DNA of 64,000 nt from a virus, in IMG/VR virus record IMGVR_UViG_3300045051_000978, positions 62,001 to 126,000 of that record; one strand, written 5' to 3'. Made by a program: the position numbers and the translations under genes. Within the stretch, counting starts at the first letter, position 1. Every line of letters starts with the position of its first letter. Shown piece after piece: positions 934 through 20,817 of this stretch. The notes under the pieces were generated by a model. That model ran no database searches, had not been told where the DNA came from, and worked only from the letters and a program-made list of their open reading frames with translations.

Positions 934-3037
934 GCGCGTCGATAGCGCAGCCGAAGACGTACTCCAGGGTGGGTCCAAGGACAGCGAGCTGAACGAGTAC
1001 GAGCGCAAGCTGTACGACGAACTCATCGAACGTTTACGGAATGGTGAATCCGACGTGATTGGGGATTTGTGGCGCTTGGACTACGTCAAACCGCCACCGG
1101 ACATTCGGAAATTCATCCTCGACGACTACTACGTAGGCGCAAGCCTCCGACCTATTCCGGGTGAAAACGAAGGCATCTGGCCTGCCTGGCTGGAAATCTT
1201 CACGAGGGACTTCGACCTAGACAGCTACATCCACAACCTGGTCATCACAGGATCACTCGGTATCGGCAAGACCTGGATGATGGTCACGGTGCTGCTGTAC
1301 CGCATTTGCATCGCGACGCACCTGAAGAACCCGCAGAACTTCTTCGGCATCAGCCGCGGGTCACGCATCATCTACAACTTCCTGTCCGTGACCAAGGAAG
1401 CGGTCCGCGACACGGCTTTCGGCGACGCCATGAACTTCATGGGCAGTTCGCCATACTTCCGCGAGGTGTGCGGCTTCGATCCAGACATGGACTACGCCGG
1501 GTTCCGCATCCCGATGCTGAACAGCCTACCTGGAGGCGGCACGTCGAACATCTACCTCACCGCCGGTTCCAAGGGTCAGCACATCCTTGGTCGTAACGTT
1601 GTCGGCGTGGGACTGGACGAAGGTAACTTCCGCCTGGAAAAAGACCCTGATCTGAAAGCGTACGTGCTCTATGACGCCGTGCGCACGCGTATCAGCAACC
1701 GCTTCCAGAAGCTGTCAACGTTTCTACCTGCCCTCTCTGTAATCGCGTCCTCGGCAGCAGACGAATCCAGTTTCACTGAAAAGGTCGTAGACGAAATAGA
1801 GAAGCAGAACGCGGCCCGCGATGCCGACAACGCAAAGCTGCCGCCTAGTCAGCACATACCCAAGACTCAGGTCGTTTACAGAAATGCCGTATACAAAATA
1901 AAACGGCACGCGCTTCAGGACATTGGCCCAAACCACCTCTGGTTCAAGGTCGCGTACGGGCTCAAGAACATGGAGCCCTACATCCTCACCGGCTGGTACC
2001 GTGAGGACGGAACACCGGTAGGCGACGAGTCCCACGAGGAACCACCGTCCGGCGCGAAAACGGAGCTGGTTCCGAAATTCTACTACGAGGCATACCGGCG
2101 CAACTGTCGCACGAACCTCCAGGCCCTGTCCGGCATCAGCGTCAGCGGCGCACACCGCCTGTTCGCCTCGATGGTGGATGTTGAGTGGTGCATCGCGCAG
2201 TCAGAAGCCGAGGGCGTTCCAAACTCCGTGCGCCCCGGCATCGAGCGCATGGCGATTTCCAACGAGGACGGCTCAAACATCTGGGATTTCCTCATCCACA
2301 AAAACTTCGTCCAACGTGTCGCCAGCCGCCACATTCCGAAAAGGCATCCTGATCGTTTACGATACGTGCACATCGACTTGGCTACGCAGAATCTGTGCGG
2401 CGTAGCCATCTGCCACCTGGTCGGCGCTCAGCTTGTTGAGGGCATCGTGAAGGAAGGAGGGCAACCATTCGACGAATACCGCTTGATCGTCGAGTACGAC
2501 TTCATCCTGACCATCTGCGCAGGTCAGAACAAACCCATCTCCATTGAGAAGGTGCAGAACTTCATCTTCTGGCTGCGTGATATATGCGGTTTCCGATTCG
2601 GAAAGGTAACTGCCGACATGTTCCAGTCCGAAAGCATGCTCCAGGCCCTCGACGCAAAGGGATTCGAGACGGACAAGCTCTCGCTGGACCGCGACAAGTC
2701 CGTCTACCATGCCTGGCGCTCTGGCTTCGAGGAGCGTCGAATTCGTTTACCGCGCAACGCCCAGATGATTCGAGAAGCCGAGGCCCTTCTCGAAATGGAC
2801 AAGAAATACGACCACCCACCGGACGGTTCAAAAGACACCACCGACGGCGCGGCCGGGGCCTACTACAACGCGATCACGTCTGAAGAGACGATGACCCTCA
2901 TGAGCGTCAATGCACCGACACTGGTCACGAATCGGCGCGCTGACGATCCGGAGGCGCAGCAGGTCGAGCGAGCGAAGGTACCTATCGAGACCGTTTTGCC
3001 GAAGGGGTACACCCGCGTGAAGAACTTCACTGCATGA
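905..3037 (+). CDS. terL: Terminase large subunit
   Basis: 710 residues from GTG 905, the phage DNA-packaging motor. Walker A is at about residues 115-123 (TGSLGIGKT) and a Walker B-like GVGLDEGNF is near 235. The C-terminal RNase H-like nuclease carries HIDLATQN near 490, TADMFQ near 567 and DTTDGAAGAYYN near 645, giving the expected acidic residues. It is longer than lambda- or T4-type TerL, with an N-terminal extension of about 100 residues. The start overlaps the preceding gene by 29 bp, and the stop overlaps the next ATG. Five GTTTAC sites lie within or beside it. Confidence 0.9.
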   Translation: MSTRKQTKTERVDSAAEDVLQGGSKDSELNEYERKLYDELIERLRNGESDVIGDLWRLDYVKPPPDIRKFILDDYYVGASLRPIPGENEGIWPAWLEIFTRDFDLDSYIHNLVITGSLGIGKTWMMVTVLLYRICIATHLKNPQNFFGISRGSRIIYNFLSVTKEAVRDTAFGDAMNFMGSSPYFREVCGFDPDMDYAGFRIPMLNSLPGGGTSNIYLTAGSKGQHILGRNVVGVGLDEGNFRLEKDPDLKAYVLYDAVRTRISNRFQKLSTFLPALSVIASSAADESSFTEKVVDEIEKQNAARDADNAKLPPSQHIPKTQVVYRNAVYKIKRHALQDIGPNHLWFKVAYGLKNMEPYILTGWYREDGTPVGDESHEEPPSGAKTELVPKFYYEAYRRNCRTNLQALSGISVSGAHRLFASMVDVEWCIAQSEAEGVPNSVRPGIERMAISNEDGSNIWDFLIHKNFVQRVASRHIPKRHPDRLRYVHIDLATQNLCGVAICHLVGAQLVEGIVKEGGQPFDEYRLIVEYDFILTICAGQNKPISIEKVQNFIFWLRDICGFRFGKVTADMFQSESMLQALDAKGFETDKLSLDRDKSVYHAWRSGFEERRIRLPRNAQMIREAEALLEMDKKYDHPPDGSKDTTDGAAGAYYNAITSEETMTLMSVNAPTLVTNRRADDPEAQQVERAKVPIETVLPKGYTRVKNFTA

Positions 3038-3396
3038 ACGCTCGACGCATCATCTCGACCCTCATCTTCTTTGCGCTGCTCGTCGTTTCCGTTTACACGC
3101 GAGCAGGTAAAATCGACCTGGAGTGGGATCACAGTCCAGACCCGCTGGTCGTCGGCTACCGCATTTACGCCGGCACGAACAGCGGCATGTACACGCAGAG
3201 CCAGACGGTCCCTCGAACCAACTGGACGACGTTTTCAAACCTGACCTACGCCGTGCGCTACTACTTTGTGGCAACCGCCTTCAACGCAGCCGGCGTCGAG
3301 AGCATTCCGTCGAACGAAGTCGCAGCCACCATAGGCCAGCCTCGCACGCCTTCCAACCTGGCACTCACCAACGCGCCGCCAAAACCCGGTACCTAA
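3034..3396 (+). CDS. Exported fibronectin-III-like protein A
   Basis: 120 residues. An N-terminal hydrophobic segment (about residues 6-22, IISTLIFFALLVVSV) looks like a Sec signal peptide or anchor. One FnIII-like module follows: LEWDHSPDPLVVGYRIYAG, then YYFVATAFNAAGVES, then SNEV. The start ATGA overlaps the TerL stop. An exported protein directly after TerL is odd, because phage FnIII domains usually sit in virion proteins without signal peptides. A surface role in the host is inferred. Confidence 0.75.
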   Translation: MNARRIISTLIFFALLVVSVYTRAGKIDLEWDHSPDPLVVGYRIYAGTNSGMYTQSQTVPRTNWTTFSNLTYAVRYYFVATAFNAAGVESIPSNEVAATIGQPRTPSNLALTNAPPKPGT

Positions 3397-3399
3397 GCT

Positions 3400-3723
3400 A
3401 TGAGGAAAACGCTCGCGCTCAGCTTTCTGGCCATCGTTGCCCTCACGTGCAGCGCCGGTCTGCGCGTCCGCTGGAAGGCCAATCCGGTAGAGGACAACGT
3501 GGTCGATTACCGCGTGTTCTGCGCCACAGGCGACACGCTGGTCTGGGTCAAATCCGCCGGCACAGCGACGCAGCTTGACCTCACGGGAACGGTACCTGAA
3601 GGACTGCTTCGACTCCACGTCACTGCCGTAGACGAAATCGGACTCGAAAGTCTGCCGTCTGCTCCAGCCTACTACACCAACAAGCGCCCCAGCCGGCCAA
3701 ACCTCAAGCAACCACAAGGCTGA
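3400..3723 (+). CDS. Exported fibronectin-III-like protein B
   Basis: 107 residues. The N-terminus MRKTLALSFLAIVALTCSAG is a typical signal peptide. One divergent FnIII-like sandwich follows: VRWKANPVEDNVVDYRVFC, then LRLHVTAVDEIGLESLPSAP. It is a paralogue of the preceding gene and of the proteins at 19766-20817. It ends in a basic, Pro-rich tail. Its stop overlaps the next ATG. Confidence 0.75.
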   Translation: MRKTLALSFLAIVALTCSAGLRVRWKANPVEDNVVDYRVFCATGDTLVWVKSAGTATQLDLTGTVPEGLLRLHVTAVDEIGLESLPSAPAYYTNKRPSRPNLKQPQG

Positions 3724-3956
3724 TGAACCCAATCGTACGTCGAGTCCTCGGAGAATCCGTTGAAGCCAAGCCCCTGGTGCGCTCGTCCAAGCCGCAGGAC
3801 ATCCTCGTGTGCCCGCACTGCCAGAAGGAAGTCTTGGAGAAGCACACGTACTGCGAGAACGGCGTCGATTATCACAGCGACTGCGGAGGGGCCATCGCGT
3901 TTCCGAAGCCGGACCCCGCTTCGATTCCTGCCTGGCTCAAACCCTACATGCCATGA
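3723..3956 (+). CDS. Small zinc-ribbon protein with LxE tag
   Basis: 77 residues. The start MNPIVRRVLGESVE carries the recurrent [IV]Vxx.LxE tag, here as LGE. A possible zinc site follows: CPHC near residue 30, then two further Cys (TYC and DC) and a His. It is coupled to both neighbours by start/stop overlap. If the tag is a capsid-targeting sequence, this is a packaged protein. Function is otherwise unknown. Confidence 0.65.
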   Translation: MNPIVRRVLGESVEAKPLVRSSKPQDILVCPHCQKEVLEKHTYCENGVDYHSDCGGAIAFPKPDPASIPAWLKPYMP

Positions 3957-4297
3957 TCGAGCCTTCCGAAATCGTAGACAGTCTGCTCGAAGCCTCGGGC
4001 AGCAAAACGCGCCGTCTGATTCTTCAGAAAATGGATGCTGTGCGAAAGCGTCCAGGCTTGAGCGCAAATTACGCTCAACTCGTCTCAGGCCCATTCGGTG
4101 CCATTCCATCGTATGCCGAAGAGGACCCCAACTCGGAGTGGTGGGATAGTTCTGCCGCTCAAAACCTGTTGCGAACGCTGACCGACATGCTGTCCCCTGA
4201 CAGCGATTACGGTGTCAAACCCGGTGGGCCGACCCACGTGTACCCCGGTGCCCGTCAGAGCTGGCAGAAGACTGACCGCGATGTTGCCGGCCGATAG
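3953..4297 (+). CDS. Tagged protein of unknown function
   Basis: 114 residues from ATG 3953, which overlaps the preceding TGA. The N-terminus MIEPSEIVDSLLEASG is a clear tag (IV, then LLE). The rest has no recognised domain, though the C-terminus is rich in Gly, Pro and aromatic residues. Its TAG stop is the first part of the TAGTTAG motif preceding the next gene. Confidence 0.65.
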   Translation: MIEPSEIVDSLLEASGSKTRRLILQKMDAVRKRPGLSANYAQLVSGPFGAIPSYAEEDPNSEWWDSSAAQNLLRTLTDMLSPDSDYGVKPGGPTHVYPGARQSWQKTDRDVAGR

Positions 4298-4304
4298 TTA
4301 GAGC

Positions 4305-4625
4305 GTGGCAGGCCAACGCATCGAGCTTCCAAAGCACAGCATGTGGAGCGACACTCCCGTCTACGAAGTAGGCGGCGAGGTGGTGTTCGGGCTCCTCAAA
4401 GATTCTGTCGTTCCCGATGCTTCCGACGAGCTGTACGTCGTGCCTACGGCCGGTGCGGGCAGGCTGGACCTGATCTCTGACCACGCCTACGGCACGCCTG
4501 AACTGTGGTGGGTCATCGCCCGCGTCAACAACATCGCTGACCCGTTCATCGGACCATCAACCGCACAGGAGCTGCGCATCCCAACGCGTGCGCGCCTGGT
4601 CAACCTCGGACTTCTCCAGGTATGA
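4305..4625 (+). CDS. Baseplate wedge protein, gp53-like
   Basis: 106 residues from GTG 4305. The core YGTPELWWVIARVNNIADP followed by ELRIPTRARL is the signature of the T4 gp53/LysM-like baseplate wedge family, in which a short LysM-like fold ends in a conserved IP-R-L motif. It is evidence for a contractile tail. It is coupled to the next gene by an ATGA overlap. TAGTTAG lies 3 nt before the start codon. Confidence 0.8.
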   Translation: MAGQRIELPKHSMWSDTPVYEVGGEVVFGLLKDSVVPDASDELYVVPTAGAGRLDLISDHAYGTPELWWVIARVNNIADPFIGPSTAQELRIPTRARLVNLGLLQV

Positions 4626-5281
4626 GCGCCGCATCCCGCATCGTGCATAAGCTCCTGGAAGATGATTTTGATTTTGATCTGCGAGACGAGATCGAACAGA
4701 TCAAAGCTCCCAAGACGCATCGTTGGAAAATTCAACAGCTGACGTTTCGCGGCTGGGCTGACGTAAAGGTTTCGACAAACAGAGGGTGGTACAGAACGCT
4801 GTATTTCGGCTCCGAAGCAGGCGCACGCGCTGAAATAGCCGGAATGCGCATCCCCGGCAATGACGATGACGAGTACCGGGTGGTAAGTGAGGAAGTACCT
4901 CAGGAGTTCGACCTGTACGAAGACGAGGACGATTTTCGCGACGAGATCGAAGCGATCCCCGTAACAAGCCGAACCGTTACGCGCATCGACGGTCGGTACA
5001 CGGAAGACGGCGATCTGTACGACCACGACACCCATGACCCCGTCGTCATGGAACTTGACGAGTACGACATCGAAGACGGGAAAACGCTTACAGACATCGT
5101 CGTTCGGCACCTAGTTGACGACGGCGCATGCTTCGCATCCAGCTCACACTTTCATCCTGGCGTCTGGTACGACGGTCAGTCCGAGTTCATCGACGATGGC
5201 AGCCAGCAATCGAGCTGGCATCTCAAGGGGTTCTCTGAGGAAGAGGAAGAAGCCATCTTCAAATCGATGATGGGGCGATAA
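4622..5281 (+). CDS. Tagged acidic protein
   Basis: 219 residues. The N-terminus MSAASRIVHKLLEDDFDFDL is a full-length tag with acidic follow-on and DEIEQI. A second, tag-like acidic block (YEDEDDFRDEIEAI) lies near residue 100, suggesting duplication. The protein is very acidic overall and no enzyme motif is visible. A GTAAAC site (5285) lies in the short gap after its stop. Confidence 0.7.
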   Translation: MSAASRIVHKLLEDDFDFDLRDEIEQIKAPKTHRWKIQQLTFRGWADVKVSTNRGWYRTLYFGSEAGARAEIAGMRIPGNDDDEYRVVSEEVPQEFDLYEDEDDFRDEIEAIPVTSRTVTRIDGRYTEDGDLYDHDTHDPVVMELDEYDIEDGKTLTDIVVRHLVDDGACFASSSHFHPGVWYDGQSEFIDDGSQQSSWHLKGFSEEEEEAIFKSMMGR

Positions 5282-5293
5282 AACGTAAACACT

Positions 5294-5767
5294 ATGCCAT
5301 ATCTCACAGAAAACCAACTTGCAACGACGCTGGACATGCCGGTGGCGCTGCCAGCCACTGAGCTGCGCCAGGGAGATTGGCTCGTGATCGCTTCCATCTC
5401 CGTCGTCACGCCCATGCGCCTGCGCTTCAAGCAGGTGAACCTCAGCCTGCTCTCCTGCTCGGTCAACACCAGCCTGATCGCCAACAGCAATCGCATCTTC
5501 GGCAACCTGGGATTTGTCTACCTCGCTCTCCGCAAGGACTACAGCGGAGAATCTCCCGGTTCGGCTGACGCGAAGGACGTTTTCGGCGTCACGGCGCTCG
5601 GAACTTACGCCAGACCCGGAGAAGAGCTGGTGCTGTCCGAAAGCGGTGTCTACTCTTGGATCATCGCCAACAACATGAAGGCGAGCGCCACGTCCAGCGT
5701 CCCTACCGACACCGAAATCAATTTCAGGGTCGCTGTGACAGGTATGGCTCGTCTGGAGATGGAGTAA
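5294..5767 (+). CDS. Putative virion protein, paralogue 1
   Basis: 157 residues, predominantly predicted beta strand. The stretch LPATELRQGDWLVIAS followed by MRLRFKQVNLSLL aligns with LPQTELKRGRSVRVAS and LELRSLTLHVL in the next gene, so the two are paralogues. It is placed between baseplate-type genes. A role as tail decoration or adhesin is likely but not proven. Confidence 0.65.
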   Translation: MPYLTENQLATTLDMPVALPATELRQGDWLVIASISVVTPMRLRFKQVNLSLLSCSVNTSLIANSNRIFGNLGFVYLALRKDYSGESPGSADAKDVFGVTALGTYARPGEELVLSESGVYSWIIANNMKASATSSVPTDTEINFRVAVTGMARLEME

Positions 5768-5771
5768 ACCC

Positions 5772-6191
5772 GTGTCTTACGTCAACACCGCCAGCTACGC
5801 CAAAACGCTCACAATCCCAATCAGCCTGCCCCAGACCGAACTCAAGCGTGGTCGGTCCGTGCGCGTGGCCAGTTGGAACCTGAAGCTGGGCGAGAGGCTT
5901 GAACTGCGCTCGTTGACTCTGCACGTCCTGCGCATCCTGACGCCAGGGCCGCAACCGATCTACACCAACACCGCGCTCGGAGCTGCCAGCGCCGGCATCT
6001 ACCTCGGGGAAACCGTCACGAGTCCTATCGCATGGACCTTCGTTGGAAGCGTGGGCGCAGCTTCCACCAACCCGTTCCACGTGCGCCGAATGATCACGCC
6101 AGGCACGTACACGGTCATCGTCAGCAACAACACTGCGAACCTTGATCTGGCGGTCTGCGCCACCGGCTGTGTTCGCCTGCTCAGCCTATGA
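5772..6191 (+). CDS. Putative virion protein, paralogue 2
   Basis: 139 residues from GTG 5772, four bases after the preceding stop. It is a small beta-rich protein and a paralogue of its upstream neighbour. Its stop overlaps the ATG of the large structural gene that follows, suggesting joint expression with it. Confidence 0.65.
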   Translation: MSYVNTASYAKTLTIPISLPQTELKRGRSVRVASWNLKLGERLELRSLTLHVLRILTPGPQPIYTNTALGAASAGIYLGETVTSPIAWTFVGSVGAASTNPFHVRRMITPGTYTVIVSNNTANLDLAVCATGCVRLLSL

Positions 6192-8686
6192 ATCAGCTCG
6201 AATCAGCCCTGGTTCTCCGCCTTCGGACTCCGTTCAAGTGGGGTTCTGCCATCGACGCAACGCCGGGTTCAACGATCTCTGAAAGCGGCGTCCTGCATCC
6301 TGTCTACGGAACGCAGACGTTCAACCCTCTGGACTACCAGTACCGCGACCGGCAGCTGCGCTACCTGGACCTGATCAACGCCGCGGCACTGGTGGACGTG
6401 GCGATGCAGGTCTCCGATGTCTGGAACGCTCCGACCGACTATCCATCGATGGAGGGTCCGGCTCCCAAGGCGATGCCGGCCATCGTGAGCGCGCAGCTCA
6501 CTTCGTACGGCGTCGGAAGCCTCGTGCGCTACGTCTCCGGCACCTCGACGCCCTATGACGCCCGCACGACCGACAACGACCTGTACGGCCGGGACCTGCT
6601 CCTGCACGAAATCCTGGCGCGTGCCTGCGCCATCTTCAACGAACCACCCATCACCCCGCTCGACAGCACAGGCACCGTCGTCCCCAGCACAGGCACCTGG
6701 TCGCTGGCGGACGGTCTCGAAACCCCAGCGGACATCAACGCAGCGCTCCCGCTGACCAAGTCCCTCTTCAAGAATCCGGATCGGCATCTGGCCGACCGCG
6801 ACAACCAGCTCGCAGCCTACGTGGCCCGCGTCGTCCAGGCGCTCAAGAACCCATTCGCGTTCGCGCATCGCCTCTACGTGCAGGCTGAGGACGTAGAGGC
6901 CACAGAGCCCGAGGTGTTCGTCCTGACCTCCGACACCAGCGCGCAGCGCGTCTGGACTGCCGAACCCGCTCTGAGCGGCCGGAACCGGATCATCTACGAC
7001 ATCGCCGACCAGACGCTTCAGTGGTTCCGCGAACGCCTGGATGAAGTCCACGTGCCCCAGCTGGTCGCCCTGGAGATTCCTGGCGTGCTGCCTGGGCAGA
7101 TCGTCAAAACGCTGCCGAACATCCCCAGTCAGACCGACGCTCAGTTCTGGCGGCAGAAGGCCGCTCGCGTGATCCCATTCGGTGGCTCCGTTTCAGACGA
7201 GCTTTCGCTCGGCTTCACGGCGTCCGACGCCGCGGTTGGAGGCTACACGCAGATCAAAGCAGCAAGCCTCACAGTCCCTGGAGAGCTTTCCATCACGCTC
7301 GACGGCGCTCTGGATGCCGGCGTACACCGCGTCGCCGTCCTGGCCGTACCGAACCCGACAGTCGAGATCGCCGGAGCCAGCAACGCCACCAACGACAGCG
7401 GGACGGACGGCGGAGCCACGTTTGCGGTGAACGTGGCCAGCGGAGCCATCGGAGTGAAGCGCTACCTGGTCATTGGCGGCGATGGCATCATCTACAACTC
7501 CGGCACCTACTACAGCGGAAACGTCTTCGACGGCGTCGATGGAGTCACCACGTACACACAGGTTGGCGCACCTTCCACCGTACGGCAGTATGCCATGGCC
7601 TGGAAGCTGGCGCTGCCCCCTGGCGCGTGGAAGCTGCGGATCGACTACACCAACGTCAGCGGTTCCACGACAGGCTTTGGCGTTGGAGCCAACTACGTCG
7701 AGGGAGGCAACACAGTCCAGGTCATCAAGGACACGACAGCGCTGCCGTTTACAGAAGCGAACGGCGTCGTTGTGTCGAGTGCCGAAGGCGCTTTTGACGT
7801 GCTCAACGGCAACGAATTCTCGATGCCGATCTACTGGAGCTACGGCGACGGTCAGCTGCACATCCGCAAGCTCACCTTCACCAACACCGACCTGACCGAC
7901 TGTCGGATCGCGATGTCCGGAACCATCGGCATCGGCGAAGCCCAGGTCAACGTGGTCGGCACCCGGTACCAGCCAGAGGTGCTCCTGTTCACTCTCCAAA
8001 ACGACGCCCAGACGCCGCAGACGGTCGTCACGTTCCGAATGGGCGGCACCATCGGAGTGGACCCTTTGCTGCCGATCCAGATCAAGCAGGTGGCTGTCCA
8101 GAACGTCGGCGACTACAATGCCACGCTCGATGCCGACGGCTTCCAAGGTTGGCGGCAGGAGTGCGTAGACCGTGCGGAACGCGCCATCGCGACGACGTAC
8201 AACACCACCGTGCGCGAATACGGCACAGCCTTCTTCCCGACCTTCTACAGCTCAGGCACCGCCTGGAGCGCCTACAACACCGAGGTGTGGATGGCCGTCG
8301 CGCAGGCCAAGCACCCAAGGCTGCGCGAGCTGACCGCGATTCCGACCACAGGGATCGCTCCGGGACGACAATACGAGGTAACGACCGGGCCAGTCACCTA
8401 TGCCAGCTCCGTCTACGTCGCAGGCGAGACTTTCTACGGCGTCGAAGGCGAGACCACGTATGCCGGCGGCAGCGTGGATCAAATCGGGGCCTTCCGGAAA
8501 TCGAACCCGGGCCACATCGGCAAACCTTGCCTTGTCCCGTACGGCCTCTCGTTCAACGGCAGCGTTGCATCCCTGACCGTCAACGGCACATCCGCGGTGC
8601 CCAGCGTCGTCGCCGCCCAACCGTGGATGATCGACCTTGGCTTCTACACGGCCCAGGAAGACTTCTGGATGCCCGAACAGCGTTGA
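6188..8686 (+). CDS. Large virion structural protein (tail or baseplate)
   Basis: 832 residues, beginning MNQLESALVLRLRTPFKWG. The N-terminal 330 residues appear partly helical; the rest is beta-rich with long Gly/Ser/Thr stretches. A short module recurs: IIYNSGTYYSGNVFDGVDG near residue 435 and VYVAGETFYGVEGETTY near residue 755, both of the form YxxGxxFxGVxGxTTY seen in phage tail proteins. Size and context suggest a baseplate or fibre component. The stop codon lies inside the -35 box of the next promoter. Confidence 0.7.
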   Translation: MNQLESALVLRLRTPFKWGSAIDATPGSTISESGVLHPVYGTQTFNPLDYQYRDRQLRYLDLINAAALVDVAMQVSDVWNAPTDYPSMEGPAPKAMPAIVSAQLTSYGVGSLVRYVSGTSTPYDARTTDNDLYGRDLLLHEILARACAIFNEPPITPLDSTGTVVPSTGTWSLADGLETPADINAALPLTKSLFKNPDRHLADRDNQLAAYVARVVQALKNPFAFAHRLYVQAEDVEATEPEVFVLTSDTSAQRVWTAEPALSGRNRIIYDIADQTLQWFRERLDEVHVPQLVALEIPGVLPGQIVKTLPNIPSQTDAQFWRQKAARVIPFGGSVSDELSLGFTASDAAVGGYTQIKAASLTVPGELSITLDGALDAGVHRVAVLAVPNPTVEIAGASNATNDSGTDGGATFAVNVASGAIGVKRYLVIGGDGIIYNSGTYYSGNVFDGVDGVTTYTQVGAPSTVRQYAMAWKLALPPGAWKLRIDYTNVSGSTTGFGVGANYVEGGNTVQVIKDTTALPFTEANGVVVSSAEGAFDVLNGNEFSMPIYWSYGDGQLHIRKLTFTNTDLTDCRIAMSGTIGIGEAQVNVVGTRYQPEVLLFTLQNDAQTPQTVVTFRMGGTIGVDPLLPIQIKQVAVQNVGDYNATLDADGFQGWRQECVDRAERAIATTYNTTVREYGTAFFPTFYSSGTAWSAYNTEVWMAVAQAKHPRLRELTAIPTTGIAPGRQYEVTTGPVTYASSVYVAGETFYGVEGETTYAGGSVDQIGAFRKSNPGHIGKPCLVPYGLSFNGSVASLTVNGTSAVPSVVAAQPWMIDLGFYTAQEDFWMPEQR

Positions 8687-8711: not shown

Positions 8712-8720
8712 TTCGGCAGC

Positions 8721-8927: not shown

Positions 8928-8943
8928 TCCCGGCCTTGAAAGC

Positions 8944-9215: not shown

Positions 9216-9545
9216 TCAGTAGCCGCGAGGAGCCCGCGTGCCGACCTTGCCGGTGTAAGGGTTGATGTTGGGGTAGGTGGAGAAGTTGTTGTTGAACGAC
9301 CGATCAGGCGTCGTGCGGAAGTGCGGGGCGACGTAGGTGCCGTTACCGCGGAAATACGGCGAAACGGTGGTCACGCTGGGCGACGGCAGTCGCGGCATGG
9401 TGTACGTCGGCATGGTGTACGTCGGCGTACGGGGCATCGTGTACGTCGGCGTACGGGGCAACCCGTACCGATCCGCACCGCGGGATTCGCCACCAGGAAT
9501 GAGAAGAGCCGCGAGGGCAACTGCGACGAGAAGCATGGACTTCAT
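9216..9545 (-). CDS. Exported protein with PRTPTYTMP repeats
   Basis: 109 residues from ATG 9545 (MKSMLLVAVALAALLIPGG), a classical signal peptide with predicted cleavage near SRGA. Next come degenerate repeats of PRTPTYTMP, then a C-terminal motif GTYVAPHFRTTPDRSFNNN...NPYTGKVGT. That ending matches small exported bacterial proteins of unknown function that share a GTYVxPHxRTxPD...NxNPYTG signature (from memory). It is probably bacterial in origin and acts at or outside the host envelope. Confidence 0.8.
   Translation of the reverse strand: MKSMLLVAVALAALLIPGGESRGADRYGLPRTPTYTMPRTPTYTMPTYTMPRLPSPSVTTVSPYFRGNGTYVAPHFRTTPDRSFNNNFSTYPNINPYTGKVGTRAPRGY
9394..9460. repeat. Short tandem repeats inside the exported-protein gene
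   Basis: A 15-bp unit (GGCATGGTGTACGTC) occurs twice in tandem at 9394-9423. It is followed by a 24-bp unit beginning GGCGTACGGGGCATC and a partial second copy. They encode the Thr-Tyr-Thr-Met-Pro repeats, and slippage here could change repeat number in frame. Confidence 0.75.
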
Positions 9546-9589
9546 GGGCGTGAGCCTGCCTGAATGGCTGGCGAAGTTCAAGAACTTGT

Positions 9590-10015
9590 TTACGAAAAGT
9601 GCTTGCAGGCATCCCGAATCTGCCGAGCGTTTTCCCAGGCCAGCTCTGGCAGGTTCGACACCTTGGCCCAACGCACCTTTTCGGCGTCATCGTCGGCCAC
9701 CGCCTTCGTTCCTGCCGGCACCCATGTCCAGAAGAAGGTGAGGTGACCGATGTCTACGTCATCCTCCTCGAACTGGTGCATCTCGTCCGCCTCGATGCCC
9801 GTCTCCTCGGTCAGCTCGCGGTACGCTGCATCGCGGTCGCTCTCTCCGCTGTCCACGTGGCCACCTGGGCATGCCCATTTGCCCTTCATGGGCTCACCGC
9901 CACGCTTGATGATCAAGGCTTCCGGGTCCTCGCGGTTACGCAGGACGACGATCCCGACGTAGCGTGCCTGCTCTTCCAGCAAGCGCGCCGCGACTGCGTG
10001 AGCGATGCCTCTCAT
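9590..10015 (-). CDS. Nudix hydrolase with LxE tag
   Basis: 141 residues from ATG 10015. A complete Nudix box is present, GHVDSGESDRDAAYRELTEE then TGI (pattern Gx5Ex7REUxEExGU), around residues 50-72, so hydrolysis of a nucleoside diphosphate derivative is expected. The N-terminus AHAVAARLLEEQ matches the recurrent tag, which would make this a packaged, injected enzyme. The substrate cannot be told from sequence. The stop codon TAA lies in a GTAAAC site. Confidence 0.85.
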   Translation of the reverse strand: MRGIAHAVAARLLEEQARYVGIVVLRNREDPEALIIKRGGEPMKGKWACPGGHVDSGESDRDAAYRELTEETGIEADEMHQFEEDDVDIGHLTFFWTWVPAGTKAVADDDAEKVRWAKVSNLPELAWENARQIRDACKHFS

Positions 10016-10368
10016 GCTGTTGTCTCCACCCACTTGTAGGCGCTGATCGCGCCGCGCAGCGTCGGCTTGCACACACCGGCACGATGCGTGTTGCAGCAGT
10101 ACCAGGTCTTTCCGTTTACGACAGACTTCCAGACGGCCGGTGTCGGTTTGTCCTGGTGGCTGTAGTGCCAGACTGCTCCTGCATCCATGACCTGCTTCCG
10201 CTCCTTGGCTGTAAGCGCCACCTTGCCACGCTTCAGCTTCGCCATGGTCGGCCCGCGCTTGGCCTCCAGGACGCGCCGCGCAAATCCAGGCGGCATGTCC
10301 AGGACAACTTCAACCAGAGCCTTGACCTGAAAAGGCGTGTAGAATTCAGTCGGCATACGGGCAATCAC
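10012..10368 (-). CDS. Unknown protein, Cys-containing C-terminus
   Basis: 118 residues from GTG 10368, which overlaps the upstream stop; ATG 10356 is possible. The middle is basic (AKLKRGKVALTAKERKQVMD), and the C-terminus has WYCCNTHRAGVC, possibly a metal-binding or nucleic-acid-binding patch. No family was recognised. It is coupled to the Nudix gene. Confidence 0.6.
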   Translation of the reverse strand: MIARMPTEFYTPFQVKALVEVVLDMPPGFARRVLEAKRGPTMAKLKRGKVALTAKERKQVMDAGAVWHYSHQDKPTPAVWKSVVNGKTWYCCNTHRAGVCKPTLRGAISAYKWVETTA

Positions 10369-13106: not shown

Positions 13107-13127
13107 TTACGGTGGAGCCGTTTGGGC

Positions 13128-13155: not shown

Positions 13156-13161
13156 GCTGCC

Positions 13162-13644
13162 ATGTCTGAAATCGCGCCCAGCCTCGTCGGTAAGCTCCTG
13201 GAGGACGGTGAGCAGCCTAATCCCGAACGGGAAGAGCTGCATCGTCCGGAGGACGCAGACAAGTGGGAAGGTGCCTACAGGACCTTCGACGAGCTGTGGG
13301 CGCTCAAGCAGAAGCAGATGGAGCTGTTCCGCGAGCTGGGCGCGTCCATCGCCTACCGGCGGGCTCTGCACAAGGTCGGTCTGGTGCCTGGACAGGTGAA
13401 GAATGTCGTGCGCGCCAGTGACATCTACGAGACGACGCCCATCACGCCTGGGCACCCGCTCAAGGCCATCCGCTTCAGCTACGCGAAGCGGTATCCGAAT
13501 GCCCTGGTCGGTGTCGTCACCAAGGACGACCGACACGTCTACTTCCACGATCCCGTGCCGCGGCAGTACGGCGAGCAGGCACCGACCTACGCCGAGTTCA
13601 ACGCTAAGCGGCAGGCGGCTCGGGAACAGGCAGCGGGTTACTAG
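13162..13644 (+). CDS. Tagged protein of unknown function
   Basis: 160 residues. The N-terminus MSEIAPSLVGKLLEDGE is a tag. A charged helical region follows (WALKQKQMELFRELGASIAYRR), then a small mixed domain with VGVVTKDDRHVYFHDPVPR. It is convergent with the next gene, the 3' ends overlapping by 41 bp. Function unknown. Confidence 0.7.
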   Translation: MSEIAPSLVGKLLEDGEQPNPEREELHRPEDADKWEGAYRTFDELWALKQKQMELFRELGASIAYRRALHKVGLVPGQVKNVVRASDIYETTPITPGHPLKAIRFSYAKRYPNALVGVVTKDDRHVYFHDPVPRQYGEQAPTYAEFNAKRQAAREQAAGY

Positions 13645-14482
13645 GCTCAGCGTAGAAAGCCGAGAAGGTGACGGGCAGAATTTCGGACGTGCGCAGCCGC
13701 ATGTCGTCGGGCAGATGCACGCGGACGTTTACAAATCCGCGATCCATGAGGTGCTGCCGAATGGTGCGCGCAATGTCGCCGACGTTCTGCCGCGTCATCT
13801 TCTGCCGCAGCCTTCGCCCACCTGACGCGTGCGTGATGACGCGGGCGCTTACGTTGACGATTCCCTTCCCCTCGTACCAGTTGACGTGCTCGATCTCGTA
13901 GACACCTGGCACGACAGCGCGCAGCTTCGGCAGGAGATCGCCGTGCTCGTTGGGCCACTGAATCTCGTCGGCGATTGAGCCGTCGTCGTCCAGGCTCTCT
14001 TGGCGCGAACCAAACTTGCGCTGCCACTCCTGTTCCTTCCAGAGCCTGCGTTTCTTCGCGATGGACCACCAGTCCCTGTACTTCGGCGGCGCGTACAGCT
14101 TGGGCGCGACCCTGAACGAGACCATGCCTCGCCCAGGCGCATCACTGAGGTTCACGTAGACCTCCACGACAAAAAGATCGTGGGCCGTCGCGAAGCGCTC
14201 TGCACCGCGGCGCAGACGCGTGCGTAGAGCCGACTGTGATGTCTCGGGCGGAGCCTGTACGTCAACCTGGAGGTAAACGTCCCGGTCATCGTGGCCGAGA
14301 TCGCGGCTGTCGTGGGCCAGGTGAAACTTCCAGGGTTGAAGATTGTCGTTGAAGAATTTGACGACCTCTTCTTTTGAAAACGCCGTGGGCGACGCGGCAC
14401 GAACCAGCTCCTCCGAGTCAAAGTCATCGGGCGCTCCATCTTCCAGGAGCGCCCGCGCAACCGAACTGGCCGACGAGATCAC
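13604..14482 (-). CDS. Large tagged protein
   Basis: 292 residues from GTG 14482, which follows the TAGTTAG motif by 3 nt. The N-terminus MISSASSVARALLEDGAPDD is the tag. The body is mixed alpha/beta with two similar-looking strand pairs (VYLQVDVQAPP, VFVVEVYVNL) and a Pro-rich end. No catalytic motif is evident. Confidence 0.7.
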   Translation of the reverse strand: MISSASSVARALLEDGAPDDFDSEELVRAASPTAFSKEEVVKFFNDNLQPWKFHLAHDSRDLGHDDRDVYLQVDVQAPPETSQSALRTRLRRGAERFATAHDLFVVEVYVNLSDAPGRGMVSFRVAPKLYAPPKYRDWWSIAKKRRLWKEQEWQRKFGSRQESLDDDGSIADEIQWPNEHGDLLPKLRAVVPGVYEIEHVNWYEGKGIVNVSARVITHASGGRRLRQKMTRQNVGDIARTIRQHLMDRGFVNVRVHLPDDMRLRTSEILPVTFSAFYAEPSNPLPVPEPPAA

Positions 14483-14835: not shown

Positions 14836-14837
14836 AA

Positions 14838-15047: not shown

Positions 15048-15070
15048 CTACGTGGGTTCAGTCTGTTCGC

Positions 15071-15445: not shown

Positions 15446-15543
15446 CTCTTCCGTGAGGATCGGAGGAGGGGTAGAGTTGGAAACCTACGTCGGCTTCACG
15501 TGGGACACTTTTGCTTGAAGCGTTGAAGGTGTCAAGCGCGAGT

Positions 15544-15951: not shown

Positions 15952-16475
15952 GCCTGGATGGTTGGAGGCGTGGGGCGCTCAGGCGCAGGCTCCGCGGCGG
16001 GCGCAGAGACCGCAGACTTCTTGGGTGGCGCAGACTTCTTGGGTGCCGTCGGTTTGGGCGTAGGCTTCTTGGGTGCCGCGGTCGGCTTCGCCTTGGTCTT
16101 CAACGCAGCCTTGGCTTTCCTGTGTGCCGCCCAGCGCTTCTTGGCTGCCGCGACGATCTTGGCGCGGCCGGCTTCGCTCAAACGGTACGGAGCCTTGCTC
16201 GACTGCTTGGGCGCGGCCCCGTAAACCGTAGACGGCTGCACGACGCGCACCGTCGCGTCGGTGACCAAGCCCATGCGCTGAAGAATGGTGCCGACAGCAC
16301 CACGACACGTCTGCGCGAACGGCTGGGCAGGGTCGTACAAATGCCAGATGTGCCACCAGAGGTTCAGATACTTGGGCTTGAGCATCTCGTCGATGGCCCG
16401 CACATCGAACTGCATGCACGCCACAGTCCATCTCTGCATGAACTGCTTGATCTCGGCTTGGGACGGGGTCTTCAT
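15948..16475 (-). CDS. Protein with histone H1-like Ala/Lys/Pro tail
   Basis: 175 residues. The first 75 residues look globular and contain many Trp (NLWWHIWHLYD). Then LSEAGRAKIVAAAKKRWAAH, a basic helix found in many DNA-associated proteins, leads to a long tail built from repeats of AxPKKPTPKPTAPKKSAPPKK. This looks like a nucleic-acid-binding tail of the histone-H1 type and could compact or tether DNA. Confidence 0.7.
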   Translation of the reverse strand: MKTPSQAEIKQFMQRWTVACMQFDVRAIDEMLKPKYLNLWWHIWHLYDPAQPFAQTCRGAVGTILQRMGLVTDATVRVVQPSTVYGAAPKQSSKAPYRLSEAGRAKIVAAAKKRWAAHRKAKAALKTKAKPTAAPKKPTPKPTAPKKSAPPKKSAVSAPAAEPAPERPTPPTIQA

Positions 16476-16478
16476 GGA

Positions 16479-16775
16479 TTACTGTCTCGACGCCAACGCC
16501 CTTTCGTAGAAGAAAGCACGGTGCTCCGGAGGAACGCGACAAATCACGACCGTGGGTGAAAGCTGGGTGATCATCGCTTCATACCCGGTGTTCCCGCCTT
16601 GGGTAAACCGGACAACCAGCAGGCGCATCGTGGGCGAAATGCCTTCAAACCCAGAAGCTGTCCCGCCTTTCGGAGCCGGCGGAGGCGGGTTGCACGCCGT
16701 CCAGACGAACTCCGTTGCGCGGGCGCGATCCATCAGATCGCAGACTTGGGCTTGAACTCCCTTGAACAAGGACAC
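16479..16775 (-). CDS. Small protein of unknown function
   Basis: 98 residues from GTG 16775, selected because a promoter lies just 6 nt upstream. A Pro-rich stretch (NPPPPAPKGG) separates two small ordered parts. No family recognised. Confidence 0.6.
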   Translation of the reverse strand: MSLFKGVQAQVCDLMDRARATEFVWTACNPPPPAPKGGTASGFEGISPTMRLLVVRFTQGGNTGYEAMITQLSPTVVICRVPPEHRAFFYERALASRQ

Positions 16776-16781
16776 GGCAGA

Positions 16782-16809
16782 ACTGTATACGATTCTGCCG
16801 TTCCGTCAA
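16782..16809 (-). promoter_or_regulatory. Sigma70-like promoter, leaderless geometry
   Basis: Minus strand: TTGACG (16804-16809), 16 bp, TACAGT (16782-16787), preceded by GTA. GTG 16775 is only 6 nt downstream. No Shine-Dalgarno fits in the gap. Confidence 0.65.
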
Positions 16810-16817
16810 CCGCAATC

Positions 16818-17774
16818 TCAGCTGTACCCGGCGAACTCGAAACCGTCAGGCAGGCCATCACCGTAGCCGTTCACCTCGTTTACGTGCCGCTCTGGATCGT
16901 GCCGGATCGTGATGTATACGCGGTCCATCTCGCCACGGGGCATCGCCTGTCCAGGCTGAAGCTTGATCTTGGAATTGTCGCAGAAAACCGTGACCGTGTA
17001 CCCCTTGTAGCCGTAATCGGCGATCTCGGCAAAATGACGACGCAGGTCCTCGTAGATGCGCTGCATGTCCGACCTGGTGATCCTGCGGTCGAGCGACCGA
17101 GGAACCGCGGTGACGCACAGCTCCTGCGGACCTTTTGACGAACGCCGCCGGTAGACGCTGACGCCGAAGCCCATTCCGCGGAAGACCCGGCGGATTGAAG
17201 GGATGTCGATTTGCATGAGCGGCTCCATGCTCGAAAGCAGCTCGTCGAAATCGTACGCGCTGTCGTCTTCGACGGACTCGCTGATGCTCTGACCGATCTT
17301 GCGGAACCTGTCGAGGACCTGGCCGCGCTCCTGCCAGTCTCTGATTGAGCTTGCCTGCCCGATGACCTCCTCGATCTGCTCCAGGAAGTACCTCAGGCGC
17401 GACCCCTCGATGTCAGGTGTTTTGACGACGAGCTTCGTGTTCGCCTGAGGCGTCGCACGCGGATTGTGCGGGTCATCGCTATCCGTAGACAAAACTGCCC
17501 CAAGCCATTCAGTGAGCTGCTCCCCTGAATCACCGACGCGAGTGCGACGAATCAAAGTGACGACAAGACCGGACCATGTGAACGCGCTCCAATCGCTGCC
17601 AATATCCCACGCTGGATCGAGCTTGAAGAGCTTTCGGTACGGACCTTCGGGTTCGCGCTTGTTGGTCGTGTAGCCGTACTCGCGAAGCGCAGACCTGTAG
17701 TCGAGCGCCTCGACCTCGTCGGTAAAGTCGAAGTCGTCCTCCAACAGCCTGTTTACGATTGCAGCAGCGCGCAC
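16818..17774 (-). CDS. Large tagged protein
   Basis: 318 residues from GTG 17774, which follows TAGTTAC by 3 nt. The N-terminus MRAAAIVNRLLEDDFDFTDE is the best example of the tag. The body contains predicted helices around residues 120-170 and a C-terminal mixed domain with YKGYTVTVFCDNSKIKL. No enzyme motif seen. Confidence 0.7.
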   Translation of the reverse strand: MRAAAIVNRLLEDDFDFTDEVEALDYRSALREYGYTTNKREPEGPYRKLFKLDPAWDIGSDWSAFTWSGLVVTLIRRTRVGDSGEQLTEWLGAVLSTDSDDPHNPRATPQANTKLVVKTPDIEGSRLRYFLEQIEEVIGQASSIRDWQERGQVLDRFRKIGQSISESVEDDSAYDFDELLSSMEPLMQIDIPSIRRVFRGMGFGVSVYRRRSSKGPQELCVTAVPRSLDRRITRSDMQRIYEDLRRHFAEIADYGYKGYTVTVFCDNSKIKLQPGQAMPRGEMDRVYITIRHDPERHVNEVNGYGDGLPDGFEFAGYS

Positions 17775-17784
17775 ACCGTAACTA

Positions 17785-18204
17785 TCAACGTGCGCGCAGC
17801 TCCATGCACAAAATCAGCTGCCTGCCGCACTCCGGGCACCAAGCTTGAAACGTCGCTTTCACTTCGTCTTCAGGCTTTGACAGCCGTCGAAAAGCCTTCA
17901 TGTCGAACGGCACTGTGAACCGTGAATGGTACGTGTTTTCAGCCGAAAACAGATGGGCGAACCTACCCGATAAAAAGCCCGTCTGGAGGTAACCAACTTG
18001 TCCGGCCCCTGGTAGTTTGGCTGCGATCTTTGCCGCCCTGTCAAACATGAGCGTGTTGTACCGCTCGTTTTCCATCAGCACGACAGCACGCGAGTGCAAG
18101 CCCCGCAAATCGTGGTCCAGAGACCGAGCTGCCGTCTGAAGCAAAGATCGGTACGAAATAGAAGTAAACCAGCTCAGCGTGAGAGCTGTTCTGTTTACAC
18201 TCAT
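17785..18204 (-). CDS. Unknown protein with CPEC
   Basis: 139 residues. CPECGRQLILC at the C-terminus may bind zinc with a distant partner. The rest (RSLDHDLRGLHSRAVVLMENERYNTLM) appears helical. It diverges from the + gene at 18273 across a 68-bp gap that contains GTCTAC but no convincing promoter boxes. Confidence 0.6.
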   Translation of the reverse strand: MSVNRTALTLSWFTSISYRSLLQTAARSLDHDLRGLHSRAVVLMENERYNTLMFDRAAKIAAKLPGAGQVGYLQTGFLSGRFAHLFSAENTYHSRFTVPFDMKAFRRLSKPEDEVKATFQAWCPECGRQLILCMELRAR

Positions 18205-18272
18205 GAAATTAGGAGTTGAACGAAAGCGCCGACAGATGCAGATTACCGGAATAGCGTTCGGTTTGTCTACAG

Positions 18273-18746
18273 ATGAAACTCAAGGTCATCATCAGCGGAG
18301 GGCAAACTGGAGCCGACCGCGCCGGTTTGGATTTTGCACGCGAAAACGGGATGTACCACGGCGGCTTTTGTCCGGCCGGCAGGCGTGCAGAAAACGGACG
18401 AATACCAGAACAGTACAAGCTGATCGAGCTGGACACGGACGACTACGCAGTGCGTACCGGCCTGAACGTGCTCATCAGCGACGCAACCGTGATCGTACAC
18501 GCCAACCCGATCACGCCTGGATCGGCGCTGACGATCCGCTGCTGTGAAGAAGCCAATCGGCCCTACCTGCTGATTCCTGTGAACATGGTTCCTCTGGAAG
18601 CAGCTTCAGCCCTCAGGAAATGGGTGTGGGCGCGAAATATCCGAGCGCTGAACGTGGCTGGCTCCCGCGAATCGCGCTGCCCAGGCGTCTACGCCTACAC
18701 GCTCGACATCCTCAATCGAGCGCACGCGATGGATCAGCCCGAATAG
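18273..18746 (+). CDS. SLOG/putative molybdenum-carrier-like protein
   Basis: 157 residues. IISGGQTGADRAGLDFA at the N-terminus, HGGFCPAGRRAENGRIPEQY, and RTGLNVLISDATVIVHAN match the putative molybdenum carrier family, a Rossmann-like SLOG member that binds nucleotide-like ligands. The SGGQTGAD loop is intact. SLOG domains are used as sensors or nucleotide hydrolases in phage-defence conflicts, so a signalling or nucleotide role is plausible. Confidence 0.8.
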   Translation: MKLKVIISGGQTGADRAGLDFARENGMYHGGFCPAGRRAENGRIPEQYKLIELDTDDYAVRTGLNVLISDATVIVHANPITPGSALTIRCCEEANRPYLLIPVNMVPLEAASALRKWVWARNIRALNVAGSRESRCPGVYAYTLDILNRAHAMDQPE

Positions 18747-18753
18747 TTAGGCC

Positions 18754-19011
18754 GTGAACAGTCTGGTCGCAAAGGTCACAGGCATCAACGAAGCCGCGGA
18801 GCACACGGTGGAAGGCTTCATCGCCATCGGACCTGACGGCCGGGTGTTCAACGGCAACGGGCAGACCGGAGCCTACGTCGTGCGCAGCGCCAATTACCTC
18901 GCCAGGATCGCCTTCCCGGGTTCTGCCATCGTGCCGGTCAAGCTGACGATCCAGGCTGACCCCTCCATCGACCCCGCAGTCCTGGCTCGCGCCATCGAGA
19001 GCATGCGCTAA
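18754..19011 (+). CDS. Small protein of unknown function
   Basis: 85 residues from GTG 18754, 3 nt after TAGTTAG. VEGFIAIGPDGRVFNGNG followed by AYVVRSANYLARIAF suggests a small alpha/beta fold. Linked to the SLOG gene by a 7-nt gap. Confidence 0.6.
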   Translation: MNSLVAKVTGINEAAEHTVEGFIAIGPDGRVFNGNGQTGAYVVRSANYLARIAFPGSAIVPVKLTIQADPSIDPAVLARAIESMR

Positions 19012-19162
19012 AACGCGGACGCCCTGCGACCGCGCCCAAGAAACGCAGCCGCAGGGCTCCTTGCATGGCACTCAAACTCCCGCTTACGTCCTAACTACGT
19101 TGGAGCAAATCGTCAACAATTTGCTTGCACCACTACTGTTTTCGCGTATGCCCATGCCCTGC
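19012..19162. other. Intergenic region before the PEP-CTERM gene
   Basis: A hairpin with 8-bp arms GCCCTGCG/CGCAGGGC (about 19020-19060) lies after the upstream stop, but lacks a U-tract. A short inverted repeat GCAAAT/ATTTGC lies around 19101-19120. A weak candidate promoter (TTGCAC, 16 bp, TATGCC) ends 10 nt before ATG 19163. No other gene seen. Confidence 0.4.
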
Positions 19163-19798
19163 ATGAAGCACATTATCCTCAGCCTCCTGATGGCCGCGGC
19201 ATTCTCCGCCAACGCCTCCAACATCACCATCGACACGCTTCCGGCGACTTCCAACGTCGGACCGTTCTCGGACACCTCCATCGCAACCTGGGGCCAGACG
19301 TTCCGCTCTCCTGGAGCTGGCACGCTCGACCGGTTCCGGCTGTCGCTGGACATCGTCGAACCGGGCGAGTTCAAGTTCTACCTCAGCGAGTGGGCCGGCG
19401 ACCGAGCCACCGGAGTCCTGCTCTACGAGAGCATCCTGCTCAGCCCTTCCGCTGGCGATTTCCTCCTCGACGTTCAGCCGAACGTGGCGCTCAAGGCCAA
19501 CACCGACTACGTCGCGTTCGTAAACAATTCGGCGTTCAGGAACACCGGATTGCCCCTGAACGCCGGAATCGACACGGGTGCCAGCTACCTCGGCGGCAAC
19601 CTCTATTTCAACGACAACGGCACATCGTTTCCCGCCTTGTCCGTCTCATCCTGGATTGACGTTGGTCTCGACGCGGCTTTCCGCGCCGACATCACCGTCT
19701 CCACTGTCCCCGAATCCGGAAGCACGACGCTGTACGGTGCGATGGCCCTTGGTGTACTGGCCTGGCTACGGTTCCGTCGGAATCAGCAGCAGGTTTGA
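19163..19798 (+). CDS. Exported protein with PEP-CTERM-like sorting tail
   Basis: 211 residues from ATG 19163; in-frame ATGs exist at 19148 and 19154. MKHIILSLLMAAAFSANA is a signal peptide. The middle is a beta-sandwich-like domain (TWGQTFRSPGAGTLDRF...). The end VPESGSTTLYGAMALGVLA plus LRFRRN is a complete PEP-CTERM tripartite tail: VPE-x-GST motif, membrane helix, Arg cluster. In bacteria this tail is recognised by exosortase. This phage copy should be anchored or sorted in the host envelope. It is flanked by exported FnIII-like genes. Confidence 0.85.
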   Translation: MKHIILSLLMAAAFSANASNITIDTLPATSNVGPFSDTSIATWGQTFRSPGAGTLDRFRLSLDIVEPGEFKFYLSEWAGDRATGVLLYESILLSPSAGDFLLDVQPNVALKANTDYVAFVNNSAFRNTGLPLNAGIDTGASYLGGNLYFNDNGTSFPALSVSSWIDVGLDAAFRADITVSTVPESGSTTLYGAMALGVLAWLRFRRNQQQV

Positions 19799-20200
19799 TG
19801 GCACCCCCTCGACCACGCCGTTCAACGCCGACATCGAGACGAACGTCAACGGCTTACTGCCGCCGGCTACGCCACTCATCAAAACCTTCTGCGCTGTCTT
19901 GGGAAGGTCCACTGAGTTTGTAGCACCACCGCTTCGCCACCAGTACAGGCGATACCCGCTGATTGAAGTGTCTACGGTTTGATCAGGCAGCAAAGGCTGC
20001 GTCCAGGAAAACACCTGAGCACCGCGGCCCACGATGTAGACACCAGACAGGTTTGTAGCGTCCGTCACAGGGACGCTTGGAGCCGCTACCGCAGAGACCG
20101 AGATGACGCGCAACGCGCCTTTCTCGGTCTCTTTCTTTGCCGGAGCAGCCGTCTTGCACCCAACGGCCATCAGGAGCAAGACAAGCGGTAGGAAGCGCAT
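19766..20200 (-). CDS. Lipoprotein with FnIII-like module
   Basis: 144 residues. MRFLPLVLLLMAVGCKT is a lipoprotein signal with lipobox A-V-G-C, Cys at residue 15. A linker and an FnIII-like module follow (VFSWTQPLLPDQTVDTSISGYRLYWW). It overlaps the convergent PEP-CTERM gene by 33 bp and is preceded two bases upstream by the stop of the next FnIII gene. Confidence 0.75.
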   Translation of the reverse strand: MRFLPLVLLLMAVGCKTAAPAKKETEKGALRVISVSAVAAPSVPVTDATNLSGVYIVGRGAQVFSWTQPLLPDQTVDTSISGYRLYWWRSGGATNSVDLPKTAQKVLMSGVAGGSKPLTFVSMSALNGVVEGVPSNLLLIPTEP

Positions 20201-20202
20201 GC

Positions 20203-20817
20203 TCAGTTGCGGCGCACGTTGACGGACGCCGGGATGCGGAGGTTGAGCGCAGCGCTCTGCGCGGACTCAAGGCTGTTCGTGCCGACGGCTGAAACCTGCA
20301 CGGCGTAGAGCACTCCGGGCACGAGGGACGGCAGATCGATCACCACAGGTGACGCTGTTCCACGTGGAACGGTGAGCATCAGCACGCCGTTCGTAGACAC
20401 CTTGAAACTGCCCACCGAGGTGTCGGCGTACGGAAACGTGACGCCAGCCTTACCGCGCCCACGGTTTGCTGCGGCAAGCGACACAGGAACCGCCGGAGGC
20501 TGCGGCGTTGCTACCGTCGCCGAAACTTCGTTCGAGAACTCCGACTCCAGCCCGGCCGAGTTGAACGCGGTGACTGCGAAGTAGGTGGTGATGTCGTAGA
20601 AGACGTTGGTGACTGTATACGTCGTCACCAAACCCAGCGTGACGGTGTTCGTGTAATTCCGAGAGGCCGTACCGTAGTAGACCTTGTACCCTGCCAGATC
20701 GGGCTCCGTGTTCGCGTCCCACGCGAGACCCACCGAGGCAGCATTGATTTTCGGGCCAATGAGAATGGCCACGAAAAGCGTAAACAACAGGACAACTTTG
20801 TTGGTAATGTTCTTCAT
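20203..20817 (-). CDS. Exported protein with FnIII-like modules
   Basis: 204 residues from ATG 20817. MKNITNKVVLLFTLFVAILI is a signal peptide with cleavage near INA. First module: VGLAWDANTEPDLAGYKVYYG, then FAVTAFNSAGLESEFSNEV, a canonical bacterial FnIII. A second, divergent module ends PGVLYAVQVSAVGTNSLES. It is the largest of four exported FnIII-like proteins in this window. Confidence 0.8.
   Translation of the reverse strand: MKNITNKVVLLFTLFVAILIGPKINAASVGLAWDANTEPDLAGYKVYYGTASRNYTNTVTLGLVTTYTVTNVFYDITTYFAVTAFNSAGLESEFSNEVSATVATPQPPAVPVSLAAANRGRGKAGVTFPYADTSVGSFKVSTNGVLMLTVPRGTASPVVIDLPSLVPGVLYAVQVSAVGTNSLESAQSAALNLRIPASVNVRRN

Follow-up and report, generated by a model that had tools for sequence, protein, structure and literature searches.

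The window analysed here, a stretch of 64,000 nucleotides corresponding to bases 62001–126000 of the 126,921-bp phage record IMGVR_UViG_3300045051_000978 (an uncultured large phage), contains two pairs of short genes, 3034/3400 and 20203/19766, named like the other genes below after their lowest position in the window. These probably are accessory, moron-type genes for small exported binding proteins that would act at the envelope. We favor this reading because of the export signals, the at least two stand-alone fibronectin type III (FnIII) domains, the tight linkage to adjacent genes, the lack of the first pair at the corresponding site in relatives of the phage, and the recurrence of such genes in many other phages. 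The sequence itself shows, or comes close to showing, export, accessory status and a late-type location, and a location of the proteins at the envelope is very likely.

FnIII-like gene pairs at two sites

The first pair directly follows the gene for the terminase large subunit (905–3037, + strand), which anchors the late operon carrying this insertion. In a tblastn search, the terminase matched 339 cultivated-phage records, with Thermus phage phiLo listed at the top (27.6% identity over 85% of the query), and it is 52–69% identical in six other viral contigs, which we used as relatives (G001–G006). The start codon of the 120-amino acid (aa) gene 3034 (3034–3396, +) overlaps the terminase stop codon in the sequence ATGA, and after a spacing of 3 nucleotides (nt) it is followed by the 107-aa gene 3400 (3400–3723, +). 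A gene for a 77-aa Cys/His-rich protein (3723–3956, +) is inserted along with the pair, and the right border of the insertion is a conserved gene at 4341–4625 (+). In all six relatives, the terminase is followed by a homologue of this border gene (49–61% identical), directly or past unrelated small genes, and none of the six contains an FnIII gene between the two. Because the six relatives lack the pair at the same site, comparison of the sequences identifies it as an accessory insertion in the late structural operon. A search for sigma-70 promoter sites found none for the two genes in this late-type operon. The Cys/His-rich protein has a homologue in G002 (9274–9495; 52% identity over 62 aa by blastp), the gene for which ends 12 nt before one for an exported protein (9507–10040) that looks beta-barrel-like by eye.

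The second pair lies on the opposite strand. Gene 20203 (20203–20817, −), for which ATG at 20817 is a better start than TTG at 20823, encodes a 204-aa protein, and 2 nt after it comes the 144-aa lipoprotein gene 19766 (19766–20200, −). Over 104 aa, the 20203 protein shares 58% identity with a G004 protein made up of a signal peptide and two FnIII stretches, and the G004 gene lies 8 nt after a homologue of the structural gene 6188–8686, and so at a different place within the late region. A tree built from 184 domains put 20203 together with this G004 protein and a further viral one (support 0.89), and 3034 was placed away from it; pairwise comparison of 3400 and 19766 revealed no convincing similarity. 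Given this separation in the tree and the lack of convincing similarity between the partner genes, a recent duplication that would link the two clusters finds no support, and the duplication suggested in the first-pass annotation of this DNA is likewise unsupported. Just upstream of the second pair, a FliA/WhiG-type sigma factor is encoded (20927–21799, −). Since no sigma-70 site was found upstream of the pair, this factor may drive a phage-specific promoter there.

The first-pass annotation listed all four products as FnIII-like proteins, which holds to different degrees for the individual genes. We scored each against the Pfam fn3 profile (PF00041; curated cut-off, 25 bits) and against an independent family hidden Markov model (HMM) built without the window sequences. 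The 20203 protein alone passed the Pfam cut-off (31.3 bits). AlphaFold2 modelled its first domain with a pLDDT of about 97 from a 24-sequence alignment, and FnIII domains were the best matches of this domain in the PDB (E-value 3e-5), pointing to an FnIII beta-sandwich fold; the second half, a weak FnIII-like stretch, was modelled at low confidence. The 3034 protein, consisting of a signal peptide and one FnIII domain, fell just under the cut-off (24.2 bits, E-value 3.9e-5) and matched the independent HMM with an E-value of 8.7e-17. Thus, the FnIII assignment is solid for 20203 and 3034. It is probable for 3400 (16.1 bits, E-value 0.013; independent HMM, 3.8e-4) and unproven for 19766 (12.6 bits, E-value 0.16), which the independent HMM left unsupported (E-value 3.9). 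An earlier HMM that included the window sequences scored both 3400 and 19766 well, but this was circular, and the independent model replaced it.

Export was predicted with a crude in-house rule, namely, a positive n-region and a hydrophobic core followed by an AXA-like site or a lipobox. This rule identified signal peptides on the products of 3034, 3400 and 20203, of which 3034 and 20203 resemble signal-peptidase-I substrates. Among the four FnIII candidates, a clear lipobox (LLMAVGC, followed by K) was found only in 19766.

A recurrent class in viral contigs

We scanned viral contigs twice for relatives, obtaining 38 loci and then 115, 80 of which were kept; the scan seeds were phage proteins, a bias shared by the viral and the bacterial samples. 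After deduplication, 67 distinct complete proteins of ≤300 aa with a signal peptide remained from these contigs (median length, 141 aa). Signal peptides were present on 68 of the 79 complete FnIII open reading frames (ORFs) of ≤260 aa in the viral loci, compared with 79 of 418 other genes of 100–300 aa in the same loci that scored under a similar permissive rule, with several starts tried. Complete FnIII ORFs of ≤260 aa accounted for 79 of 102 viral cases versus 22 of 74 bacterial ones, the bacterial domains mostly being embedded in large exported multidomain proteins. Such proteins, found in metagenome-assembled genomes (MAGs) of Acidobacteria, Deltaproteobacteria, Nitrospirae, KSB1 and Verrucomicrobia, share with the phage forms a signal peptide and a domain of the WDxNxEPDLAGYxxYYG type, the domain itself being as much as about 58% identical. 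However, the bacterial proteins mostly run on, whereas the phage forms end after one domain and a short tail, most of them within about 40 residues past the FnIII domain. In 46 of the 67 proteins, a pattern picked after looking at the sequences, a proline-rich linker with a short hydrophobic stretch, resembles the start of a missing next domain. The phage proteins would derive from the N-terminal part of large bacterial exported FnIII proteins, cut down to the signal peptide, a single FnIII domain and a brief tail.

Genes within three positions of the FnIII genes are on the same strand in 346 of 370 cases, and include genes for terminase, portal, head morphogenesis, tail and lysis proteins along with replication genes. 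Export signals are more frequent on the genes that adjoin a family member on the same strand than on the remaining genes (19/104 vs 57/862, Fisher P 3e-4), and some pairs recur. A second exported FnIII-like gene is present in three loci (L018, L148, L165) and, by eye only, in two more (L140, L166). We also looked for an enrichment beside lysis genes, but the neighbour scans, for which there was no matched background, were mixed and showed none clearly. Several members have additional C-terminal parts that by eye resemble dockerin repeats in L134 and L172, and discoidin-type domains in L140, L153, L163, L166 and L186.

Searching cultivated phages with the 20203 protein and four other family members, we found no stand-alone homologue; the few weak matches were tail or decoration proteins, the one in a Moorella phage being a 1.8-kb gene. 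Nearly all PHROG matches likewise were tail or head proteins. These results fit the first-pass statement that phage FnIII domains normally belong to virion proteins. Virion proteins with FnIII or Ig-like domains include tail fibre J, minor tail and Hoc-type decoration proteins (PHROGs 31, 1696, 10993). The window proteins resemble these in FnIII fold and through weak profile matches; in contrast to modules of a virion protein that has no signal peptide, they are stand-alone ORFs with a signal peptide or a lipobox. A literature search for phage FnIII proteins with signal peptides, or for phage PEP-CTERM proteins, found no papers on either. Exported stand-alone FnIII proteins therefore appear to be a recurrent class of phage cargo that is, as far as could be found, undescribed.

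Other exported proteins and neighbouring genes in the window

Three more products in the window were predicted to be exported. The first, a 211-aa protein (19163–19798, +) with a signal peptide, carries a CTERM-type sorting tail composed of VPESGST, a hydrophobic stretch and an RFRRN end. It resembles bacterial PEP-CTERM and VPDSG-CTERM proteins in combining a signal peptide, a short motif, a hydrophobic stretch and an Arg-rich end, but differs from them in being phage-encoded and in scoring below both cut-offs on the isolated tail (VPDSG-CTERM, 14.2 of 25 bits; PEP_CTERM, 11.4 of 16). The cut-off of TIGR03382 (MYXO-CTERM) was reached with the isolated tail only (16.3 bits, cut-off 15.85). Over 179 aa, the body of the protein shares 27% identity with an exported protein encoded by 1 of 387 genomes from the phylum of a Verrucomicrobia MAG, and a verrucomicrobial host of the phage would be a guess from resemblances of this kind. 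No relatives were detected in a search of viral contigs, and structure prediction without an alignment was uninformative (pLDDT 32). A DNA pattern encoding VPEPSTWA matched 30 viral contigs, and each of the 30 matches reads as a PEP-CTERM tail with a stop codon close by; almost all of the ORFs concerned have a signal peptide. In three contigs (L206, L210, L217), the PEP-CTERM gene lies, by eye, among terminase- or portal-like genes. A recurrent phage PEP-CTERM family with the sequence MNKLLLSAALLA...ATLQIEVFDNG was noticed in the late regions of some of the contigs L194–L223.

The second (9216–9545, −) is a 109-aa repeat protein with a signal peptide, Pro-Thr-Tyr repeats and a VAPHFRTTPD...NPYTGKVG tail, which matches PHROG 29674 of unknown function (E-value 1.2e-12). 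The third (26750–26902, −), overlapping the end of 26899–27384, is a proline-rich 50-aa lipoprotein with the sequence MKAALALLGLVVLTACRTPEPAPVPAPPLAPP..., in which MKAALALLGLVVLTAC is followed by RTPEP.... Being short and proline-rich and having a lipobox, it is a candidate Rz1-like o-spanin; o-spanins of this type are outer-membrane lipoproteins paired with an i-spanin, and no i-spanin was recognized beside it.

The count of seven exported products in the first-pass annotation was correct, with ORFs present at all the positions named (3034, 3400, 9216, 19163, 19766, 20203, 26750), five bearing signal peptides, 19766 a lipobox, and 26750 read as a lipoprotein. By number, this "secretome" is not exceptional. 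A single gene caller and a single export rule were used throughout, the rule requiring at least 80 aa and no further transmembrane segment downstream. Scored in this way, the record had 9 genes out of 177 (5.1%) with products that look exported, and closer inspection suggests that at least two of the nine are membrane proteins or false positives. The corresponding shares in cultivated genomes, all partial, were 3.6% in Rhizobium phage RHph_TM30, 2.1% in Thermus phage phiLo and 3.6% in Vibrio phage SIO-2, and in the six relatives they ranged from 2.3 to 5.2%. The share in the record is thus only slightly above that in the three cultivated phages. A few exported products seem to be common in large phages, and the comparison with these three under the same rule gives no support to an unusually high number here. 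Two further lipoproteins are encoded outside the window, at record positions 40059–40448 and 60003–60263. The latter (L043) is a small gene near the terminase gene, and a small lipoprotein gene is also found near the terminase in G001, G003, G004, G005 and G006; homology among these genes was assessed by eye only.

Apart from the exported proteins, many differing ORFs share a start-proximal motif, AxxIVNRLLEDD...DEIE, which is possibly a common targeting or propeptide sequence; these include 4622–5281, 13604–14482, 16818–17774, 38864–39661, 39649–40020, 39954–40589, 41770–42366, 42221–42904 and others, and the motif also occurs in relatives L047–L050. The gene at 21808–23157 (−) encodes a member of the adenylosuccinate synthetase family (PF00709, E-value 9e-60) that could be PurZ-like; its counterpart in Rhizobium phage RHph_TM30 is annotated as 2-aminooxy adenylosuccinate synthetase. 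Also encoded are a kinase-like protein with a DnaJ-like stretch (25683–27065, −; PHROG 3043, E-value 9e-28) and a circularly permuted YpsA of the SLOG family (18273–18746, +; Pfam cpYpsA, E-value 2.9e-49).

Possible roles at the envelope of the infected cell

The first-pass view that the exported FnIII proteins are not of the virion type and likely have an envelope role agrees with what was found here. In the scenario we favor, the proteins would be made late, cross the inner membrane by the Sec pathway, one of them becoming lipid-anchored, and then bind some component of the infected cell's envelope or surface. Such binding is suggested by the nature of the domain and by the companion proteins, and the discoidin-type and dockerin-like modules seen by eye on other members would fit surface binding. 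Our first choice among specific roles, put forward tentatively, is that receptors on infected cells and debris are masked, sparing the progeny from loss after lysis, by analogy with T5 Llp, which has been described as masking receptors in this way (PMC9586334). Like T5 Llp and T1 Cor (PMC9586334, PMC13164509), the window proteins are small, phage-encoded and exported, their proposed site is the envelope, and one of the four has a lipobox. Unlike Llp, which is described as made early, the first pair is located in a late operon, and this difference in timing counts against masking; furthermore, three of the four proteins have a signal peptide without a clear lipobox, and the fold is FnIII.

A role in superinfection exclusion, proposed in the first-pass annotation, is possible. 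Several points weigh against the envelope-binding interpretation as a whole. Superinfection-exclusion proteins are described as made early (PMC9586334), and the late-operon position is a poor fit to an early-acting exclusion protein. The signal peptides rest on a crude rule. The functions of neighbouring genes are mixed, replication included, so that no single pathway stands out.

The late position would also suit proteins that serve as lysis accessories, acting in the periplasm or outer membrane alongside holin, endolysin and spanin and perhaps making the outer membrane looser. Several members have a holin or endolysin gene no more than three genes away (GTA_holin_3TM twice, Peptidase_M15_3 twice, Amidase_2, Phage_lysozyme), and some, such as those in L008, L010 and L020, have C-terminal tails that by eye resemble cationic amphipathic helices. 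For T1-like phages, a part in lysis as an accessory factor has been suggested for an SH3 protein that stands alone (PMC13164509); it is reported to be encoded next to the lysis cassette, with no signal peptide mentioned, and thus differs from the FnIII proteins in location as well as in fold. However, only about eight recognizable lysis genes were found among 234 neighbours, which is not clearly above chance, no recognized lysis gene adjoins the window pairs, and the tails of their products are not amphipathic helices. We consider a lysis function unlikely.

Alternatively, the phage might have borrowed host-type surface proteins that alter the binding of infected cells to each other or to a matrix. 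The nearest bacterial relatives are indeed large exported proteins, and the companions include the CTERM-tailed protein in the window and PEP-CTERM proteins in the late regions of other phages. A coat protein expressed late, though, could do little before a lytic cycle ends, and no evidence of lysogeny turned up, without a search aimed at it. Such a role in adhesion or as a surface coat therefore seems improbable.

The proteins could also be added to heads or tails as virion decorations, with the hydrophobic N-terminus not serving as an export signal. Characterized phage FnIII domains are virion-borne, and the genes sit among structural genes. This is nevertheless hard to reconcile with the recurrence of positively charged n-regions, hydrophobic cores and AXA-like or lipobox sites in 68 of the 79 small members, given that tailed virions assemble in the cytoplasm; moreover, relatives with the same structural genes lack the FnIII genes. 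We regard decoration of the virion as quite improbable. Bacterial contamination, with host DNA wrongly assembled into the phage record or flanking it, is hardly credible: the domain does have many bacterial relatives, but the genes lie inside the 126.9-kb record between phage genes, one of them overlaps the terminase stop codon, and such genes recur inside the late operons of independent contigs.

Returning to the reading of the two pairs as cargo for envelope-binding proteins, we can offer a broader and more speculative proposal, that environmental tailed phages share a class of undescribed small, late, exported binders, with a single FnIII domain, sometimes in tandem pairs and beside CTERM-tailed proteins, which remodel or mask the envelope, and that some of these phages use host exosortase-type machinery for surface placement. 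Current profile searches label such proteins "tail fibre" or leave them unnamed; a signal peptide, a WDxNxEPDLAGY motif and a short tail together provide a sequence handle for finding the genes. So far, only a small number of model phages are known to encode envelope proteins, and the exported FnIII class of uncultured phages, which did not appear in the cultivated phages searched, would, if it is what it appears to be, mean that a late step acting on the envelope is widespread.

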